64,000 nucleotides of DNA from Anaerolineaceae bacterium (GTDB taxonomy: Bacteria > Chloroflexota > Anaerolineae > Aggregatilineales > Phototrophicaceae). The stretch's first letter is position 1; each line of letters opens with the position of its first letter. Where the stretch lies: positions 248,001 to 312,000 of the forward strand of contig WGMX01000028.1 in NCBI GenBank assembly GCA_016124855.1. Reading direction: 5' to 3'. A program made the translations under genes and the position numbers. The notes under the pieces are model-generated. The model ran no database searches. It saw only the letters and a list, made by a program, of their open reading frames with translations, and was not told the DNA's origin. Positions 53,040-64,000 of this stretch are shown here, in pieces.

Positions 53040-53708
53040 TTAGACGGCGACGGCATCCAGTTCGTCAGACATGGCGCGATGGACGCGAATAAGTGTCGCA
53101 AGGGATTCGGTGAGCCAATCGTCGGGATAGGCTGTGTAAAGGGATTTGGGCAGATTCGACTCGCCGGATATGTGTGTATCAATCGTACGCGTAGATATGG
53201 CACTTACTGGATGATAGAGGGTGAGGTTTTCGGGAAGATGCATTCGTGGTCTATCACTGAAGCGATCCACAAGGTCATAAAGTTGTTCGGTTATGTCAGC
53301 GATTTGGCTGGGTTGAACAGCATCAAAGCCCATTTTATCAACGATCTTTTCAACTTCGCTAACCGAAACGCCGTTCCTGTGAATTCGCTTCAGCGAGTCG
53401 ATCAGAAATGATTCGGACTCGCGCAAAGCATCTAGAAAAGCCGGATAATATGTGCCTTTGCGGAGTTTCGGAATTTCGAGCATGAGTTCACCAAGACTAG
53501 TCATCCATGTGCGGCGGCGGTAACCATTGCGATAGGAACGACGATTGGAACTGCGTTCGTGCGGATTGGCTTCAATCACCTCGCTGATTTCCAGTTCGAT
53601 GAAGACCTGTACAAGGACGCGCAACCCTTCGCGCAGAAATTCAACATCGGCGGTGACATCAACTGTTTTGATTTGGACAGACGGTTTATCTTCTGATCGT
53701 GATGGCAT
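53040..53708 (-). pseudogene. IS256/Mutator-type transposase N-terminal region with an unrelated C-terminus
   Basis: 222 residues in one open frame. Residues about 20-115 follow the N-terminal half of IS256 transposases: FLREGLRVLVQVFIELEISEVIEA, then ERSSNRRSYRNGYRRRTW, LGELMLEIPKLRKGTYYPAFL, and GVSVSEVEKIVDKMG. The DDE catalytic domain (about 280 more residues) is absent; instead there is a 65-residue unrelated tail. No terminal inverted repeats or target duplications are seen around it. Either a truncated transposase remnant or a domain kept for DNA binding; the intact frame leaves both open. Confidence 0.7.
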
Positions 53709-54986: not shown

Positions 54987-55099
54987 GACAATTGCCAATA
55001 GTCTAGTAAGATAGAGATAGTATTTAGGTAACGATTCCGGGATTCTTTATTCCGGTAACTAGGCAACGGATATATTTGATTGGATGAGGGGTTAGCAAT

Positions 55100-58000
55100 A
55101 TGGTGCAAGAACCGATAACCAGTACATCACCCCAAAAACCCACGCAACGTGGACAGGCGTTAATCGAATACGCCCTGATTCTCGTGTTGGTGGTAATGGC
55201 GCTGGTAGCAGCAGTAGCAGCAACGGGGCCAGCGCTGGGCAATGTGTTCAGCAATACGGTGTTCAATCTGGTGGGAATCACCGGAACGCCACAAGACCTT
55301 TATGCACGAGGCGGGCCAACCGCATTCTGGATGACGGTGACGTACGTCGCTCAAAATCCGCCGGCAGCGCGTTCGTTCCCGACCAGCCCGCCTAAACCGC
55401 CGACGGCAACATTTACGGCAGGGCCTTCCCCGACACCATCGCCTGTGACTCCCAGTGCGACTCCCAAGCCAACCAACACCTTGCCACCGACCCCCACGGC
55501 GGAGGATATCGCACATAATGTGCCGTATGATGACACCATTAACGAACCGGTATGGTGGCGTGTAGACAGCAGTGTGTATCTCGGCGGTCAAGACTGGTTA
55601 GGGCAATACTATCCTAATACTACTTTGTCGGGCACGCCTGACCAGACGCTATACAACCAGCAGATCGACCCTTCTTACCGTTTCTTAATGGATTTTAATT
55701 GGGGAACCGGTAGTCCATTGGACGGTTGGTTGACCGATAACTTCTCGATCCGTTTTACGCGTCAGATCGATGTACAGCCGGGGACAACACCCGTAAAACT
55801 GACCTTTAACCTGACATCTGACGACGCTTCTAAGCTGATTATTGATGGTGCAACCGTAATCGCTTCGGGAAGTGGCTCGCGATCCTTTACGCAAACTTTT
55901 ACTCCAAATGCAACCCAGACTACACCGCATACCATCGTGATCGAATATGTTGAGAACACGGGTAATGCAAGTCTTAGTCTTGCGATTACAGGCGAAAAAG
56001 GTAACGTATTAGATGATGATACTAAACCAACAGGTGGCGCAAAGAACTGCCCGTGGTCTCAAACAACCGGTACTCAACCCAATACATTGATGTACTCGTG
56101 GAAAGAAAATCTCTCGACCGTAACCAACGGTTTCCCCCAGAATATGAAGTGCAACCTAGAACTGCGCGGTTACGTCGACCTCACGGGCGTTTCAAGCGCA
56201 ACGATGAGTTTCTGGGATGTCTGGGATTTTGGCACGGCGACCGATACATCGGTGAAATTGATTCTTGCGGAATATGTACCCTATAACGCTGATCTTACCG
56301 GTGGCCCGAATTGGGGTGCTGGCACCAGCTTTACGTTACATACATCGGGCAAGAATTATGCTTGGACGCGCAATGAGCTAGCCATACCAGCGGGTCTGGT
56401 CAACAAAAAGGTGACATGGCGTTTCGTTATGGACAGTGGATCCGCAACGAGTATTCGACGCTGGTATCTTGATGACATCCGTTTGGCAGCAGCTACCGCG
56501 CCAAAAACGTTTGGTGTTTGTACAATCAGCAAATACACGTGCGGCAGCTACTGGAATTTGGATATTCCTGATCAAAAGGCTGACTTTATCACCTCAGGGC
56601 GTTGGGATTTGACCAACAAGATTGTCGCGTCAAATGACTCCGGCGGTACATCCATGAGTTGGGATATCAGCAGTGCCCTGCTCAATGGCAACACGACCTA
56701 TGCCAAATTTGGCAGTGAGCAAACGAGCAGTGATTATCGTATCCATTATGTGGCGCTCAACGGATTAGTTGACCTTCGAACGATTAACATAGATGGCACG
56801 GGCGGATTGCCTGACTGGGAAGGTGACAGCGGCTTCCCCATTCTGTCCTTCTATCAGGCTTACGGGTTAGAAGCTGGCGATTCAATCGAAGTCCAATATA
56901 CCCGCGACTCTGACACGCCCGGTGTTCCAGCTAACTGGACACGGGTTGGAACCAGCGCTATTAAGAGTGTTGGCACCAGCAGCAGCGCGATTTCAGCGCC
57001 CATGGGTAGATTCGATTTGCAGCTAAAGGATATTCCCAATTGGAATACTGTACCTTTCCGGCTGCGCTTCGCGCTCATCGTCAACAATAATAAAGAGTCT
57101 ACGGGCTGGTACATTGATAATATTGCCATCGAGCGTGAAGGTATTCTCAAGTATGCCAACTACCCATTCTGCGATGATGCCGAAAACGGTACTGATCAAT
57201 GGCTGATGGGTGGTCAATGGGGTATTGCAACCACCAGTGGTGCCTTCCAGACAGGGCGTTCATTCAGTGACAGCCCAAGTGGCAACTATGTGAATGGACA
57301 GGTGAGTTCGATGACTATGCGCTATGCCATCGACTTCAACAATGACACACCTGAAAACGTAACGATATGGGGCGGCAACAAGAGCTGCTTTGATGGATCG
57401 AATTCCGGGGCTGCCTCGCAACCGATCTTGTCCTTCTGGCATTGGCGCAAGCTAGGTTCCAGCAAGAGCTTCCGTATCGAATTGTTCCGTAATGCACGGG
57501 CGGCTTCATCCACTACGGCTATCGCACCGTTTACAGTATGGTCTTACAGTTACAATTCGGGCAACGCTAATCAGGTTGTTTGGGAACGTGAAGAAGTCAA
57601 CATGCGTGCCGCGATTGAAAAAGCGACGGGCGTTAAATGGGCAACCTTGATGAGCAATGCCGACAAGTATGATGATGATTTCTATGTCCAGATCACGTTC
57701 GATGCATCATCGGGTAGTTCAGTGTCGGACGGTATTTATATCGACAACTTGGTCATGCAAGAGTACAGCGAAACATCGTTTAAGCTGTGGTCAACTTCTA
57801 CCAATTACACAGCCAAGACGGGTGCACCGGTAGCTGGATTAGGTAATGGGACAAACTGGGTCGATAATATCGATACCCCTTCTGACTGGTACAGTCGATG
57901 GACAACTGGTGGTACGTGGACCGGCGTTACGTGGGATGCGCACAGTGGCATTACGTCAATGCACGACAGCGGTACAAGTGGACAAAAGTACTTGCATCAA

Positions 58001-59620
58001 AGCTTCAACGTACTCGAAATGAACAAGATTCTCGATTTACGTGGAACGAAGACTACTGATCTCCCGACCATGTTCTTCTGGAACCATTACAACATCTCAT
58101 CCGGGGATTCCATATCAGTCGATGTCGCGGTGCAAGACGAAACGGAAATGACATCAGCTACACCTCCACGCAACCTGATGGGCTATGACTATCAATATTT
58201 GTGGGGATCAGCTAACTCGTATGCAGGCGGCAGCGCCAATACGTCATGGGGCGGCGCCAGTTCGTGGGAATCAATCTGGAGTCTGGGAGCAAACAGTCGA
58301 AACGACGCTTGGGTTCGCCAACAGATTGACCTACGAAACTATGTGGGCAAACGCATTAAGGTTCGTTTTGTACTCAATGCTTATGCGAACTCAAACGTTG
58401 GACTCGGTTGGTGGTTAGATGATATTCAGTTCGTGTTCCGCACCAACGAAGTGTTCACAGTTGGCTTCAGCGATGATGCTTCAAATATGCGCTACTGGAT
58501 ACCTGAAGGCAAATGGGGTCTTGCACCTGACCAATGGCGTGGTTCAGGCGGTGGTGCAGCAGACATCGGAACAAATCCGTGGAGTGTCTTCTGGTTCGAC
58601 TGCATTGGATGGACAAAGAATCCGACAAAGACCGCAGCACAATTCCAAAGCAGCTATCTGAACGAGAGTAGCTGTGATCAAAATGCTTGGGGAACATTCT
58701 TCGACAACGTGACCCGCACTAAGGTGGGTACTGACGCCTGGATTGACTCTCGTACGGCCTCGAATATGTTAGTCGCCGGACAGCAGTTCATCAAGGACTT
58801 TACTGATGTCATCAACTATGACTTCGGCACTGATGGTCGACCGGGTTTCGCAAGTGATACATGGTACGACCAGTTTGGGGCGCGGTTCATACGGGATATT
58901 ACCGTAACGGGTGGCGTATACACTTTCATTACCACTTCAGATGATGGTGTCCGCGTACGCGTTGAAAATTCGGACGGTAGTGTACCGAGTGGCTTCCCAT
59001 CATCACCCTATTGGAATGTCATTAACAACTGGTCATTCCACGGCAGCACAGTAGACTATAAGAATGTGACACTGATCCCCGGTGCATACCGCATCATCAT
59101 GGAATACTTTGAAGGTGGCGGAGGCGCAGTCGCGCAGTTGCAGGTAGGCACAAACAAGTTCTCGTTCAGTGACAGCCCGAAAGCCGGTGCCAGCAGCGCG
59201 TTCCCTGTGATTAACTCGATACCGTATAGCGACTCGTCGTTGATTTTGAACGGTATTATTAATCTGAACATACCTGCGGGATATACGACGGCTCAGTGGA
59301 AACCACGGTTGGAATTCTATAATTTGTTCTACTTCGCCAGCAACACGTATGGTGCGGTTGAAGTGAGTACAGATGGCGGTTTCACGTGGCAGCAAAATAA
59401 CTTGACTGACAACTGTCCTTTAAGTGGATGGCAGTGTGATCCCAATACATGGGGGTATGCTGATGTTCGACCTCAAACCGGTAGTGACTGGATACTTCGC
59501 TCGCACGATTTGAGAGCGTATGCTAACCAGAATATCGGATTACGGTTCAAACTGCACACGAGCAGCAGTACACAGGATGGTTGGTGGATTACGGATATTG
59601 TCATCGGCAATATCGGGTAA
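55100..59620 (+). CDS. giant surface protein with Flp/TadE-type prepilin N-terminus, PA14 and jelly-roll repeats
   Basis: 1506 residues. Residues 1-18 are a short leader ending in Gly18; QALIEYALILVLVVMALVAA follows, with Glu at +5 and Tyr at +6 after the Gly, the Flp-type prepilin processing site, plus one hydrophobic helix. Then a Pro/Thr linker (about 93-138); a PA14-like domain (about 150-300, with TSDDASKLIIDG); at least five repeats ending in W(Y/W)(L/I)xDI-type strands at about 453, 669, 877, 1104 and 1494, like MAM/jelly-roll adhesion modules; and a second PA14-like region (about 1210-1360, TTSDDGVRVRVE). A small Flp pilin normally has about 60 residues, so this is probably an adhesin anchored in or displayed on a Tad-type pilus. 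No tad genes in the window. Confidence 0.85.
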   Translation: MVQEPITSTSPQKPTQRGQALIEYALILVLVVMALVAAVAATGPALGNVFSNTVFNLVGITGTPQDLYARGGPTAFWMTVTYVAQNPPAARSFPTSPPKPPTATFTAGPSPTPSPVTPSATPKPTNTLPPTPTAEDIAHNVPYDDTINEPVWWRVDSSVYLGGQDWLGQYYPNTTLSGTPDQTLYNQQIDPSYRFLMDFNWGTGSPLDGWLTDNFSIRFTRQIDVQPGTTPVKLTFNLTSDDASKLIIDGATVIASGSGSRSFTQTFTPNATQTTPHTIVIEYVENTGNASLSLAITGEKGNVLDDDTKPTGGAKNCPWSQTTGTQPNTLMYSWKENLSTVTNGFPQNMKCNLELRGYVDLTGVSSATMSFWDVWDFGTATDTSVKLILAEYVPYNADLTGGPNWGAGTSFTLHTSGKNYAWTRNELAIPAGLVNKKVTWRFVMDSGSATSIRRWYLDDIRLAAATAPKTFGVCTISKYTCGSYWNLDIPDQKADFITSGRWDLTNKIVASNDSGGTSMSWDISSALLNGNTTYAKFGSEQTSSDYRIHYVALNGLVDLRTINIDGTGGLPDWEGDSGFPILSFYQAYGLEAGDSIEVQYTRDSDTPGVPANWTRVGTSAIKSVGTSSSAISAPMGRFDLQLKDIPNWNTVPFRLRFALIVNNNKESTGWYIDNIAIEREGILKYANYPFCDDAENGTDQWLMGGQWGIATTSGAFQTGRSFSDSPSGNYVNGQVSSMTMRYAIDFNNDTPENVTIWGGNKSCFDGSNSGAASQPILSFWHWRKLGSSKSFRIELFRNARAASSTTAIAPFTVWSYSYNSGNANQVVWEREEVNMRAAIEKATGVKWATLMSNADKYDDDFYVQITFDASSGSSVSDGIYIDNLVMQEYSETSFKLWSTSTNYTAKTGAPVAGLGNGTNWVDNIDTPSDWYSRWTTGGTWTGVTWDAHSGITSMHDSGTSGQKYLHQSFNVLEMNKILDLRGTKTTDLPTMFFWNHYNISSGDSISVDVAVQDETEMTSATPPRNLMGYDYQYLWGSANSYAGGSANTSWGGASSWESIWSLGANSRNDAWVRQQIDLRNYVGKRIKVRFVLNAYANSNVGLGWWLDDIQFVFRTNEVFTVGFSDDASNMRYWIPEGKWGLAPDQWRGSGGGAADIGTNPWSVFWFDCIGWTKNPTKTAAQFQSSYLNESSCDQNAWGTFFDNVTRTKVGTDAWIDSRTASNMLVAGQQFIKDFTDVINYDFGTDGRPGFASDTWYDQFGARFIRDITVTGGVYTFITTSDDGVRVRVENSDGSVPSGFPSSPYWNVINNWSFHGSTVDYKNVTLIPGAYRIIMEYFEGGGGAVAQLQVGTNKFSFSDSPKAGASSAFPVINSIPYSDSSLILNGIINLNIPAGYTTAQWKPRLEFYNLFYFASNTYGAVEVSTDGGFTWQQNNLTDNCPLSGWQCDPNTWGYADVRPQTGSDWILRSHDLRAYANQNIGLRFKLHTSSSTQDGWWITDIVIGNIG

Positions 59621-62339: not shown

Positions 62340-64000
62340 ATGAGACGAACCCATATTTATTTCACAGCCTTTTTTGCATTCGTTTTATTCGTCGGTCTAC
62401 CGATTCTTACTTCTGCACAATCAAACGCTGTGACGGCCGAGGCAGTGGGACAAGCAAACCTGCGTTCCACAACAGATGTGAATGGCGATTTGCTAGGTGA
62501 AATTAAATCCGGGACACGTTATCCCGTTTTAGGTCGCAGTCAGTTTTATCCTTGGTATTTACTTGGTGATCCAGACACTCAGCAGCCGATTGGTTGGGTT
62601 TACGCTGATCTGGTTACAGTCGTGGGAAATGTCAATACATTACCGTATAGCGAAGTGGTCATTAGTAATGTGCCCGCAACTTTGACACCTGAGCCATCGC
62701 TGACACCTGATTCGAGTACTGGGATTAGTGCCACCAACAGCCTCATACCCGAAGCGGCGAATGAGGCAGTTGTAACTATAACCGCTACATCAGAACCGCT
62801 GAGCGGCGTTATAGGTGTCGCACAGGCTGAAATCAATATTCGGTACGGCCCCAGTGTAGATTACCCGCGAATCGGTGTAGGGGAAGCTGGCGAAAAATAT
62901 GAAATCACAGGCCGCCACAGTCAATTTCCTTGGATCCAAATCCGGTATCCCGCCGCGCCAAATGGCTATGGTTGGGTTGCTAATGACTTATTACAGGTAC
63001 AAGGCAATATCTATAATGTGCCAGTTATTACACAACTTTCCTTTAATTTACCGACGTTGACTCCTACGCCTCCCGTTGTATTGGCTAGCCATCTGCTCGA
63101 AAGTTCACCGGTTGTCATTAGTCCAGCATTTCAGGCACTTGGCGATAATTTGTGGGGGATGATGCTCAACGCAGGTTTTGCGCCTGAAACCAGTACACTG
63201 GCAGCGCTATTTGTGATGAACCTCAAGACTAATGAGGCGCTGACATTTGGCAATAACATTGCGTTCAGCGGGATGAGCCTAAATAAGATCGCGATTTTGA
63301 CAGCACTTTATGGCAGCTTCCAAGGGCCTCCTGACGAAGAAACAGCGCTTAACATCGCATATATGATGGTTTGCAGCGAAAACAGTGCGTCTAATGCATT
63401 ACTGCGCGAACTCGGAAACGGCGATGAATATGCCGGTGCGGCAAAAGTGACCGAGATGTTGCAAAAACTAGGTTTGGGCAACATGTTCATTATTGCCCCA
63501 TTCAAAGTGCCAAACGCAACACCTGCTCCCGTACGTGCGCCGACGACGAATGCTGATCAGACCCGCGCGCTACCTGATTATTCCAATCAGCTCACGGTTG
63601 ATAATATGGGATGGCTACTGGCTAGTATTTATCAGTGTGCTAACACAGGTGATGGAGCACTTATGACCAAGCTGCCGGGGCAATTCACGGCGCAGAAGTG
63701 CCGCCAAATGCTGAATATCATGAGTGATAATAACCTTGGCGAACCCCTGATGATGAGCGCTGGCGTGCCACCGAATACACGAGTTGCCCATAAGCACGGA
63801 TATATAGATGATACACACGGGAATGCAGGGATCGTCTTTTCGCCGGGTGGTGACTATGTGCTGGTGGTTGCAATGCATGGCCCAGTATGGTTGGAGGCCA
63901 CTAATACGTTTCCTTTGATTAGTGACCTCTCGCGTACTGTATATAACTACCTAAATCCGACAGCGACCGATGATGCTAACCTTCCATGGTCTATCGCAGG
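62340..64000 (+). CDS. secreted SH3b domain and serine hydrolase (penicillin-binding/beta-lactamase-like) protein, cut by window end
   Basis: 553 codons to the window edge, frame open throughout. Signal peptide about 1-26 (FAFVLFVGLPILTSAQS). Two bacterial SH3 domains at about 30-100 and 155-222 (both with the NxRxxx...G and GWVxxDL patterns), typical for binding cell wall peptides. Then a serine hydrolase domain: SLNK (SxxK nucleophile), SEN near 345, and KHG as the KTG-like box near 500. The class A beta-lactamase Glu166 region (ExxLN) is not evident, so a D-Ala-D-Ala peptidase-type or other hydrolase is more likely than antibiotic resistance. Thr/Pro linkers separate the parts. Confidence 0.88.
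   Translation, partial: MRRTHIYFTAFFAFVLFVGLPILTSAQSNAVTAEAVGQANLRSTTDVNGDLLGEIKSGTRYPVLGRSQFYPWYLLGDPDTQQPIGWVYADLVTVVGNVNTLPYSEVVISNVPATLTPEPSLTPDSSTGISATNSLIPEAANEAVVTITATSEPLSGVIGVAQAEINIRYGPSVDYPRIGVGEAGEKYEITGRHSQFPWIQIRYPAAPNGYGWVANDLLQVQGNIYNVPVITQLSFNLPTLTPTPPVVLASHLLESSPVVISPAFQALGDNLWGMMLNAGFAPETSTLAALFVMNLKTNEALTFGNNIAFSGMSLNKIAILTALYGSFQGPPDEETALNIAYMMVCSENSASNALLRELGNGDEYAGAAKVTEMLQKLGLGNMFIIAPFKVPNATPAPVRAPTTNADQTRALPDYSNQLTVDNMGWLLASIYQCANTGDGALMTKLPGQFTAQKCRQMLNIMSDNNLGEPLMMSAGVPPNTRVAHKHGYIDDTHGNAGIVFSPGGDYVLVVAMHGPVWLEATNTFPLISDLSRTVYNYLNPTATDDANLPWSIA

Follow-up and report, generated by a model that had tools for sequence, protein, structure and literature searches.

A 1506-residue protein joining an Flp pilin module to PA14 and jelly-roll domains: a probable modular Tad pilin in an Anaerolineaceae bacterium

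The stretch of 64,000 nucleotides analysed here (contig WGMX01000028.1 of the Anaerolineaceae bacterium assembly GCA_016124855.1, positions 248,001 to 312,000), which is referred to as a whole as the window, contains an unusually long open reading frame (ORF) whose product, called here the giant, is probably a modular pilin, or adhesin, of the Tad (type 4c) pilus, made of an Flp pilin module, a Pro/Thr linker and an ectodomain of about 1,350 residues. The properties that carry this reading were computed directly: the architecture of the protein, the conservation of the Flp module and its prepilin site, the presence of Tad genes in its genome, and the shared distribution of the family and Tad. 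A first-pass annotation of the window had given the coordinates and length of the ORF exactly, and its estimate that the mature protein is over twenty times larger than a short pilin was conservative, since 1488 mature residues against the 39 of a short Flp make a ratio of about 38. The parts of the giant, all on the forward strand, are as follows.

55100..59620, forward strand: ORF of the giant, ATG start, 1506 residues.
55100..55153, forward strand: leader peptide of variable sequence (residues 1-18); Gly18 is its last residue, and a prepilin peptidase cut is predicted after it.
55154..55273, forward strand: Flp pilin module, residues 19-58 (QALIEYALILVLV...GPALGNVFSNTVFNL), from identity to the genome's short Flp, shuffled alignments, profiles and AlphaFold2 (AF2).
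55274..55522, forward strand: linker, residues 59-141, with a short helix (72-85) and then a Pro/Thr/Ser-rich stretch, from sequence and AF2.
55577..56008, forward strand: PA14 domain 1, residues ~160-303 (PF07691, 6.2e-9; profile match to the RsgI3 PA14 domain 6qe7, 3.4e-24).
56015..56509, forward strand: jelly roll 1, residues ~306-470, with conserved Cys317 and Cys351 (hhalign with jelly rolls 2 to 5; AF2).
56522..57145, forward strand: jelly roll 2, residues ~475-682 (hhalign; AF2).
57161..57814, forward strand: jelly roll 3, residues ~688-905 (hhalign; AF2).
57827..58483, forward strand: jelly roll 4, residues ~910-1128, InhA-like MAM (PF20773; hhalign; AF2).
58607..58759, forward strand: helical insert between jelly roll 4 and PA14 domain 2, residues ~1170-1220 (AF2 helices).
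58772..59167, forward strand: PA14 domain 2, residues ~1225-1356, with a conserved Asp-Asp pair (PF07691, 0.0083 on its own; hhalign with PA14 domain 1, 99%).
59183..59620, forward strand: jelly roll 5, residues ~1362-1506, with the stop codon (PF20773/PF21471; hhalign).

The amino terminus of the giant reads MVQEPITSTSPQKPTQRG up to the predicted cut and QALIEYALILVLV after it, with Gly at position -1 (G18), Gln at +1 (Q19), Glu at +5 (E23) and Tyr at +6 (Y24); the exact Flp-type site (Gly, Glu at +5, Tyr at +6) noticed in the first-pass annotation is therefore present, and all four residues are invariant in 14 orthologs, down to about 31% overall identity. Conservation among these orthologs is lowest in leader residues 1-17 (0.28), highest in the Flp module (0.78) and between 0.48 and 0.59 in the remainder, and a variable leader followed by a highly conserved module is the pattern expected of a prepilin. 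The module is identical to the 48-residue Flp of the same genome at 24 of 40 positions, and its alignments to two short Flps score 16.8 and 18.0 standard deviations above 2000 shuffles. The homology spans the whole Flp pilin in an alignment that includes the short Flps, and the GPAxGNxFSN segment beyond the hydrophobic core is conserved as it is in them.

Profile methods give the same assignment. In a Pfam scan of residues 1-57, Flp_Fap (PF04964) matches at an E-value of 3.1e-5, followed by DUF6480 (0.043), Class_IIIsignal (0.065) and TadE (0.089 only, so that the module is not TadE-type), and the N-methylation motif is absent from that scan. Flp_Fap also matches, at E<=0.01, 14 of the 18 members of a profile built from 16 giant N-modules and two short Flps; when this profile was searched against the sequences of the PDB, a match that the short Flps help, the first hits were PilA 8u1k (E 0.0013, over 22 residues) and the Flp pilin 8u2b (0.024). 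AF2 models residues 19-58 as one helix at low to moderate confidence (predicted local distance difference test, pLDDT, about 50-70) and leaves the Pro/Thr linker disordered (pLDDT 42-46 for residues 91-130). By its size, 1506 residues against a short single-helix protein, the giant is a carrier of the Flp module and not a classical Flp pilin.

The possibility of a chance motif is ruled out by the orthologs together with a control on 612 ORFs of at least 100 residues taken from the window and 46 loci, in which the pattern G-x4-E-[Y/F] with a hydrophobic 15-mer within the first 60 residues occurs in 34: the giant, its orthologs, one TadE-type relative and the genome's own 463-residue Flp protein. 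The class III pattern is absent from the first 60 residues of the remaining 578 control ORFs, a set that includes a few Flp or TadE proteins with a start listed too far upstream (for example in L021, L080 and L088).

The machinery that such a pilin would need is encoded in the genome, a metagenome-assembled genome (MAG) of 7.09 Mb, 97.7% complete and 9.1% contaminated. The Tad and Flp genes whose absence the first-pass annotation had named as decisive against its proposal were looked for, and TadB, TadC, CpaF, CpaE, CpaB, TadE, a prepilin peptidase and Flp were all found. One locus holds TadB and TadC (T2SSF), CpaF/TadA (T2SSE, 7.9e-64), CpaE/TadZ (REC and AAA) and CpaB/RcpC (1.1e-8); the peptidase (1.7e-10) lies on the window's contig, about 300 kb from the giant, and short Flps occur on several contigs. 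A minor-pilin cluster, about 35 kb from the Tad locus, comprises two TadE-type ORFs, the longer with long Pro/Thr linkers, and an ORF called TadG-like by reading:

L177:6581-13260 (G000:C77), forward strand: Tad minor-pilin cluster, with TadE-type (389 residues), TadG-like (1034 residues) and TadE-type (806 residues) ORFs.

The distribution of the family follows that of the assembly platform. With thresholds of E<=1e-30 for both the N-terminal profile of the giant and TadB, the 154 genomes of the order divide into 90 with both, 1 with the giant only, 25 with TadB only and 38 with neither (Fisher p 4e-18, a value that ignores kinship); when two genomes whose relative of the giant is of TadE type (G039 and G046) are left out, the table becomes 88/1/27/38 (p 2.5e-17, likewise ignoring kinship). 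The giant-only exception, G377, is an assembly of 1180 contigs, and its sister G024 has both genes. In a rough rpoB tree of 28 of 30 genomes (one bad row, G031, with a branch of about 10; weak forks near G017 and G027; outgroup families that do not fall outside), the sampled genomes without both genes occupy four positions, of which two have good support: G032/G388/G395 of genus g17 beside G389, which has both (100%), and G034/G382 (g19) beside G024/G377 (95%), with G027 and G017 weakly placed. The genomes without both thus represent at least two separate lineages, and probably four. As an observation in its own right, G389 is an 8.5-Mb genome, and the other listed members of g17, which have neither Tad nor the giant, measure 3.5-4.9 Mb.

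All 15 of the examined genomes that lack giant and TadB keep a Peptidase_A24 gene. The absence of the giant where the platform is missing, although the peptidase is kept, favours a filament subunit over a mere membrane anchor, and the choice left by the first-pass annotation between a pilus-tip adhesin and a pseudopilin-anchored protein is in this way partly resolved, towards dependence on pilus assembly.

In the ectodomain, the first-pass annotation's description as PA14 plus five repeat modules was right as to PA14 and the number of modules; there are, however, two PA14 domains, and the repeats are jelly rolls. Pfam on the whole giant finds InhA-like MAM at 2.4e-12 (three stretches), PA14 at 1.1e-10 (two stretches), Flp_Fap at 0.006 and Reelin subrepeat B at 7.3e-4, the last under its own cut-off. 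In profile-profile comparison with hhalign the five jelly rolls are mutually homologous, all 10 pairs having probabilities of 95.6-99.4%, and the two PA14 domains match each other at 99.0%, against at most 3.3% for any match between PA14 and jelly roll. On their own, jelly rolls 1 and 3 have no Pfam match and jelly roll 2 has no credible one. Structure prediction of the repeats, suggested in the first-pass annotation, gives beta domains after the helix and linker, with a mean pLDDT of 74 and a predicted TM-score (pTM) of 0.57 for residues 1-757, and 84 and 0.74 for residues 691-1506. Foldseek places reelin repeats first for both halves (8.8e-13 and 9.0e-14), and further down its ranking come different proteins with a beta-sandwich (glycosidases, meprin, Cry/Vip proteins); normalised by the model, the TM-scores do not exceed 0.25, as is expected of domains laid out like beads on a string.

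By sequence profile the closest solved PA14 domain is that of RsgI3. In other PA14 lectins, calcium and sugar are bound by an Asp-Asp pair; this pair is kept in PA14 domain 2 (D1281 in 14 of 14 orthologs, D1282 in 13) and not in PA14 domain 1 (4 and 10 of 14). Two cysteine pairs, Cys317/351 (14 of 14) and Cys1168/1192 (13 of 14), are conserved in a manner consistent with an extracytoplasmic fold. The Flp helix is followed by no C-terminal membrane segment, the best Kyte-Doolittle window after residue 60 scoring 0.87 against 2.8 in the helix. At the DNA level, a purine-rich GAGGGG, read by eye, stands at 55086-55091 upstream of the ATG; no tandem repeats were found in the DNA of the giant, and a scan for promoter-like sites, which returned 3 against 0.8 +/- 0.9 in shuffles, was left unused.

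Among 61 genomes (the giant's own and 60 relatives, with row types assigned by reading), 50 have a match at E<=1e-10 and 11 have none. The N-terminal Flp part is seen in 44 of the 50 (in G025 via L072); the others show C-terminal pieces only (G033 and G036), PA14 matches only (G037 and G050) or the TadE-type relative (G039 and G046). An ORF of more than 300 residues with the site was found in 35 of 38 fetched regions, 33 of Flp type and 2 of TadE type; of the remaining three, L128 and L110 have an Flp start and L078 runs off its contig. The ortholog frames are mostly about 960-2000 residues long, with shorter ones of 98-803 residues in 11 of 91 matching genomes and one of 348 residues in G040. 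Orthologs in so many independent assemblies, together with the stop-free rows that match the giant, rule out a pseudogene or an assembly fusion.

When the N-terminal profile was run over 298 genomes of the class, with at most 7 candidates scored per genome, no match among those listed outside the order started before model position 79, which corresponds to PA14, together with linker in some cases; all listed matches extending into the Flp module belong to the window's own order. A scan of genome contigs, which took the best 80 of 94 relatives to 73 loci, found an Flp- or TadE-like start at 55, including two of another Flp protein (L132, in the flank, and L157). The other 18 are four contig-end fragments (L108, L133, L134, L139), three loci with a short N-terminal match only (L143, L149, L164) and 11, among them L153 at a contig end, where only internal or C-terminal parts match; the titles of 8 of the 11 name other phyla. 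Two strong relatives titled as lying outside the phylum (L095, Bacteroidetes; L140, Pleurocapsa) look like mislabelled MAGs.

By eye, folD adjoins the giant in 24 of the 38 regions, several of which are cut by contig ends, and gmk in 24, with both in 20 and either in 28, which makes a recently acquired gene unlikely. Two further ORFs of this neighbourhood deserve mention. At 53040-53708 on the reverse strand, in the gap between clpP and folD, a 222-residue ORF corresponds to no more than the N-terminal part of an IS256/Mutator transposase (Transposase_mut, 7.3e-29) and is possibly a domesticated transposase fragment; relatives with 37-54% identity stand between clpP and folD in 5 of the 38 regions (L056, L057, L058, L062, L065), that of L065, from another genus, having 302 residues. 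At 62340-63998 on the forward strand, an ORF with SH3_3 repeats and a beta-lactamase-like domain (Beta-lactamase2, 7.7e-21) is also near the giant in many regions of relatives.

Similar cargo is found on another pilin module. In G039 and G046, which belong to another family and in which the Flp-giant was not found, a PA14/InhA-MAM ectodomain follows a TadE-type N-module (L080, L081); the G039 protein, the one scanned, matches Pfam TadE at 4.3e-11 and has TSP3 and cadherin-like domains in addition. With 26% identity to the giant and different neighbours, these relatives are candidate, not proven, orthologs, and the placing of such cargo on a TadE-type module suggests that the job of the N-module is docking to the Tad pilus. 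The modular Flp strategy may moreover be recurrent, given a second protein in the giant's own genome:

L018:6166-7557 (G000:C60), reverse strand: second modular Flp protein, 463 residues, with Flp, an (S/T)G-rich repeat linker, TSP3, cadherin-like and malectin-like parts.

Further long Flp frames occur, for example of 801, 798, 795, 618 and 2199 residues, and the frames with an Flp start of 2054 residues (L157:5992-12153) and 2199 residues (G047:C24:26541) may represent further modular Flp families.

From these results we infer the processing of the giant, its incorporation into a filament, its ligand and its role in aggregation. The Flp helix would direct insertion with the N-terminus inside and the C-terminus outside, leaving the ectodomain outside the cell; the prepilin peptidase would cut after Gly18 on the cytoplasmic side; and the TadB/TadC platform with the ATPase CpaF would build the mature Flp helix into the Tad filament as a minor subunit, located either at the tip or at scattered points along the shaft. 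The long arm could then bind glycans or neighbouring cells and so promote aggregation. The family is almost confined to genomes with pilus machinery, whose pili may display huge sugar-binding arms. A bolder version, which we put forward tentatively and at rather less than even chances, is that a shaft pilin has been turned into a display platform, with giants anywhere in the Tad filament as 150-kDa glycan-binding side arms and with cargo on either Flp or TadE modules; such free placement could follow from the helical form of the Flp module, which is without the globular part of TadE/F/G. If this is true, the Tad pili of these Chloroflexota carry a long-range intercellular glue that helps to build flocs and granules.

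Several observations weigh against a Tad pilin. Ectodomains of PA14 and jelly rolls are frequent among other surface proteins, and the gene stands outside the Tad locus, with folD and gmk as its usual neighbours. The Flp_Fap score of residues 1-57 (24.1 bits) is under the Pfam gathering cut-off of 32.2, as is that of the genome's own 48-residue Flp (27.5 bits), and 4 of the 18 modules in the profile, orthologs among them, have no Flp_Fap match even at E 0.01. Of 115 TadB-positive genomes, 25 are without a match to the giant at E<=1e-30, three of them (G033, G036, G040) showing pieces of it, so that the giant is dispensable for Tad. In addition, 15 of the 20 listed TadB-negative genomes (of 39) belong to the one genus g17, and the number of independent events is accordingly small. 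G022 (89% complete) has the giant and TadB with no Peptidase_A24 match. Finally, each of the four Tad-less genomes scanned retains an Flp_Fap-like frame, which makes a more divergent filament system possible there, and the A24 genes of Tad-less genomes may serve something else.

If the Flp module were cut by the peptidase and then served as a membrane anchor only, the ectodomain would stand on the cell surface and never enter a filament. The Flp helix is indeed the only membrane-like segment, the gene is distant from the Tad locus, and 1488 residues are very many for a pilin subunit; such an anchor would, however, need the peptidase only, whereas none of the 15 examined genomes with peptidase and without TadB has the giant; the GPAxGNxFSN segment, which lies past the hydrophobic core, shows the same conservation as in short Flps, and the alternative N-module of the two relatives is again of a Tad pilin type. 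We consider this reading unlikely. Still less probable is that the giant is simply a surface protein exported by Sec, with a signal peptide that is Flp-like by coincidence. This idea draws on AxA triplets, which 9 of the 14 proteins, that of the window among them, have after their hydrophobic stretch, and we regard it as very improbable: the triplet is missing in the other five, the identity extends over the whole Flp, Glu+5 and Tyr+6 are invariant within the hydrophobic part of the would-be signal, and no region is better conserved than the Flp module. Tested indirectly, the other outcome that the first-pass annotation named as refuting, an ordinary Sec signal in place of a class III site, is not favoured: the N-terminus suits a class III site better than a signal for Sec and signal peptidase I, in view of the variable leader, the conserved module, the four invariant residues and the incomplete occurrence of AxA.

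The giant could also start or cap Tad filaments, as a tip or priming pilin like TadG, CpaL or KilN, with the arm as a mechanosensor or spacer and not as a glycan binder. In the available text of the reports (PMC12075869, PMC12607857), the Tad tip subunits known so far are large, modular proteins, and there is usually one giant per genome as far as the search of 61 genomes shows; the genome, however, already has its two TadE-type ORFs and a TadG-like ORF, and the TadB-positive genomes without a detected giant indicate that not every genome with Tad requires it, so that we judge this role improbable, more so than that of an anchor. A modular Tad pilin with an adhesive arm is the reading we prefer.

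The same genome contains, on a 27-kb contig (L016, G000:C76:1-20000), an archaellum-like operon in which an archaellin (Arch_flagellin, 3e-24) is accompanied by a T2SSF protein and a peptidase of the prepilin type, the remaining fla genes being named by reading of the ORFs; this contig may be binning contamination, and an archaellum is reported in Litorilinea aerophila in the accessible part of one paper (PMC13319060).

Chloroflexota are reported, in the accessible portions of the sources, to rely on Tad pili (PMC7332563, PMC13319060), which have been proposed to drive the aggregation of Anaerolineae cells in sludge (PMC4877987, PMC9942424). How Tad pili stick is poorly understood, and the family described here is an order-wide candidate adhesin with a testable mechanism of attachment.

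Its parts resemble several known proteins. As in the Flp/Fap major pilins (PF04964), such as PilA 8u1k, the homology covers the whole mature short pilin; the giant differs from them in being about 38 times larger and in its Pfam score under the curated cut-off. The PA14 domains match in fold those of RsgI3 (6qe7/6qdi, the former also by profile) and of the Marinomonas primoryensis adhesin (6x8a/6xa5), whose host proteins and anchoring are different. The jelly rolls have reelin repeats and InhA-like MAM jelly rolls (PF20773) as their closest counterparts in Foldseek and Pfam; at about 10% identity to reelin, no reelin-like function is implied.

As a whole, the giant is nearest to the modular pilins. 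According to the accessible text of a census of modular type IV pilins (PMC8179133), there are more than 1,200 such proteins in 264 architectures, all with IPR012902; PA14 is among the 15 modules most frequently grafted on them, the most extreme multi-domain example cited has 860 residues, and PilB and PilC of Streptococcus sanguinis are members for which adhesion is shown in the case of PilB. The giant is built as a modular type 4 pilin is, with an N-terminal module that has the site and helix and a graft of two PA14 domains and five jelly rolls; judged by the Pfam scan of residues 1-57, it falls outside the IPR012902 definition. Like PilB and PilC, as that text describes them, it joins a class III pilin module through a linker to domains that are not pilus-specific; unlike them, its module is Flp (Tad, T4cP) and its length is 1506 residues, with relatives up to about 2000. 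In the Tad system, TadG, CpaL and KilN are described in the available text (PMC12075869, PMC12607857) as large pilus subunits with extra C-terminal domains, proposed to be displayed at the tip for adhesion, sensing or predation. The giant shares with them its large size and extra C-terminal domains; as far as that text goes, their fold is pilin-like and includes a globular part of beta-strands, and their further domains are vWA or unknown, whereas the giant uses a shaft-type Flp module with PA14/jelly-roll arms and lies outside the tad locus. In the literature searched, mainly that outside subscription papers and preprints, none of the listed titles and abstract openings described a giant Flp fusion, and no description of cargo on an Flp module or of this size was found. 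The first-pass annotation's phrase, a type not commonly described, accordingly holds for the cargo on an Flp module and for this size, and not for modular pilins as such: these are known among type IVa pili and, in Tad, from TadG, CpaL and KilN, and the novelty is the cargo on a shaft-type Flp module together with the unusually large size, which carries the modular-pilin idea over to Flp and well beyond the 860 residues of the example in the census.

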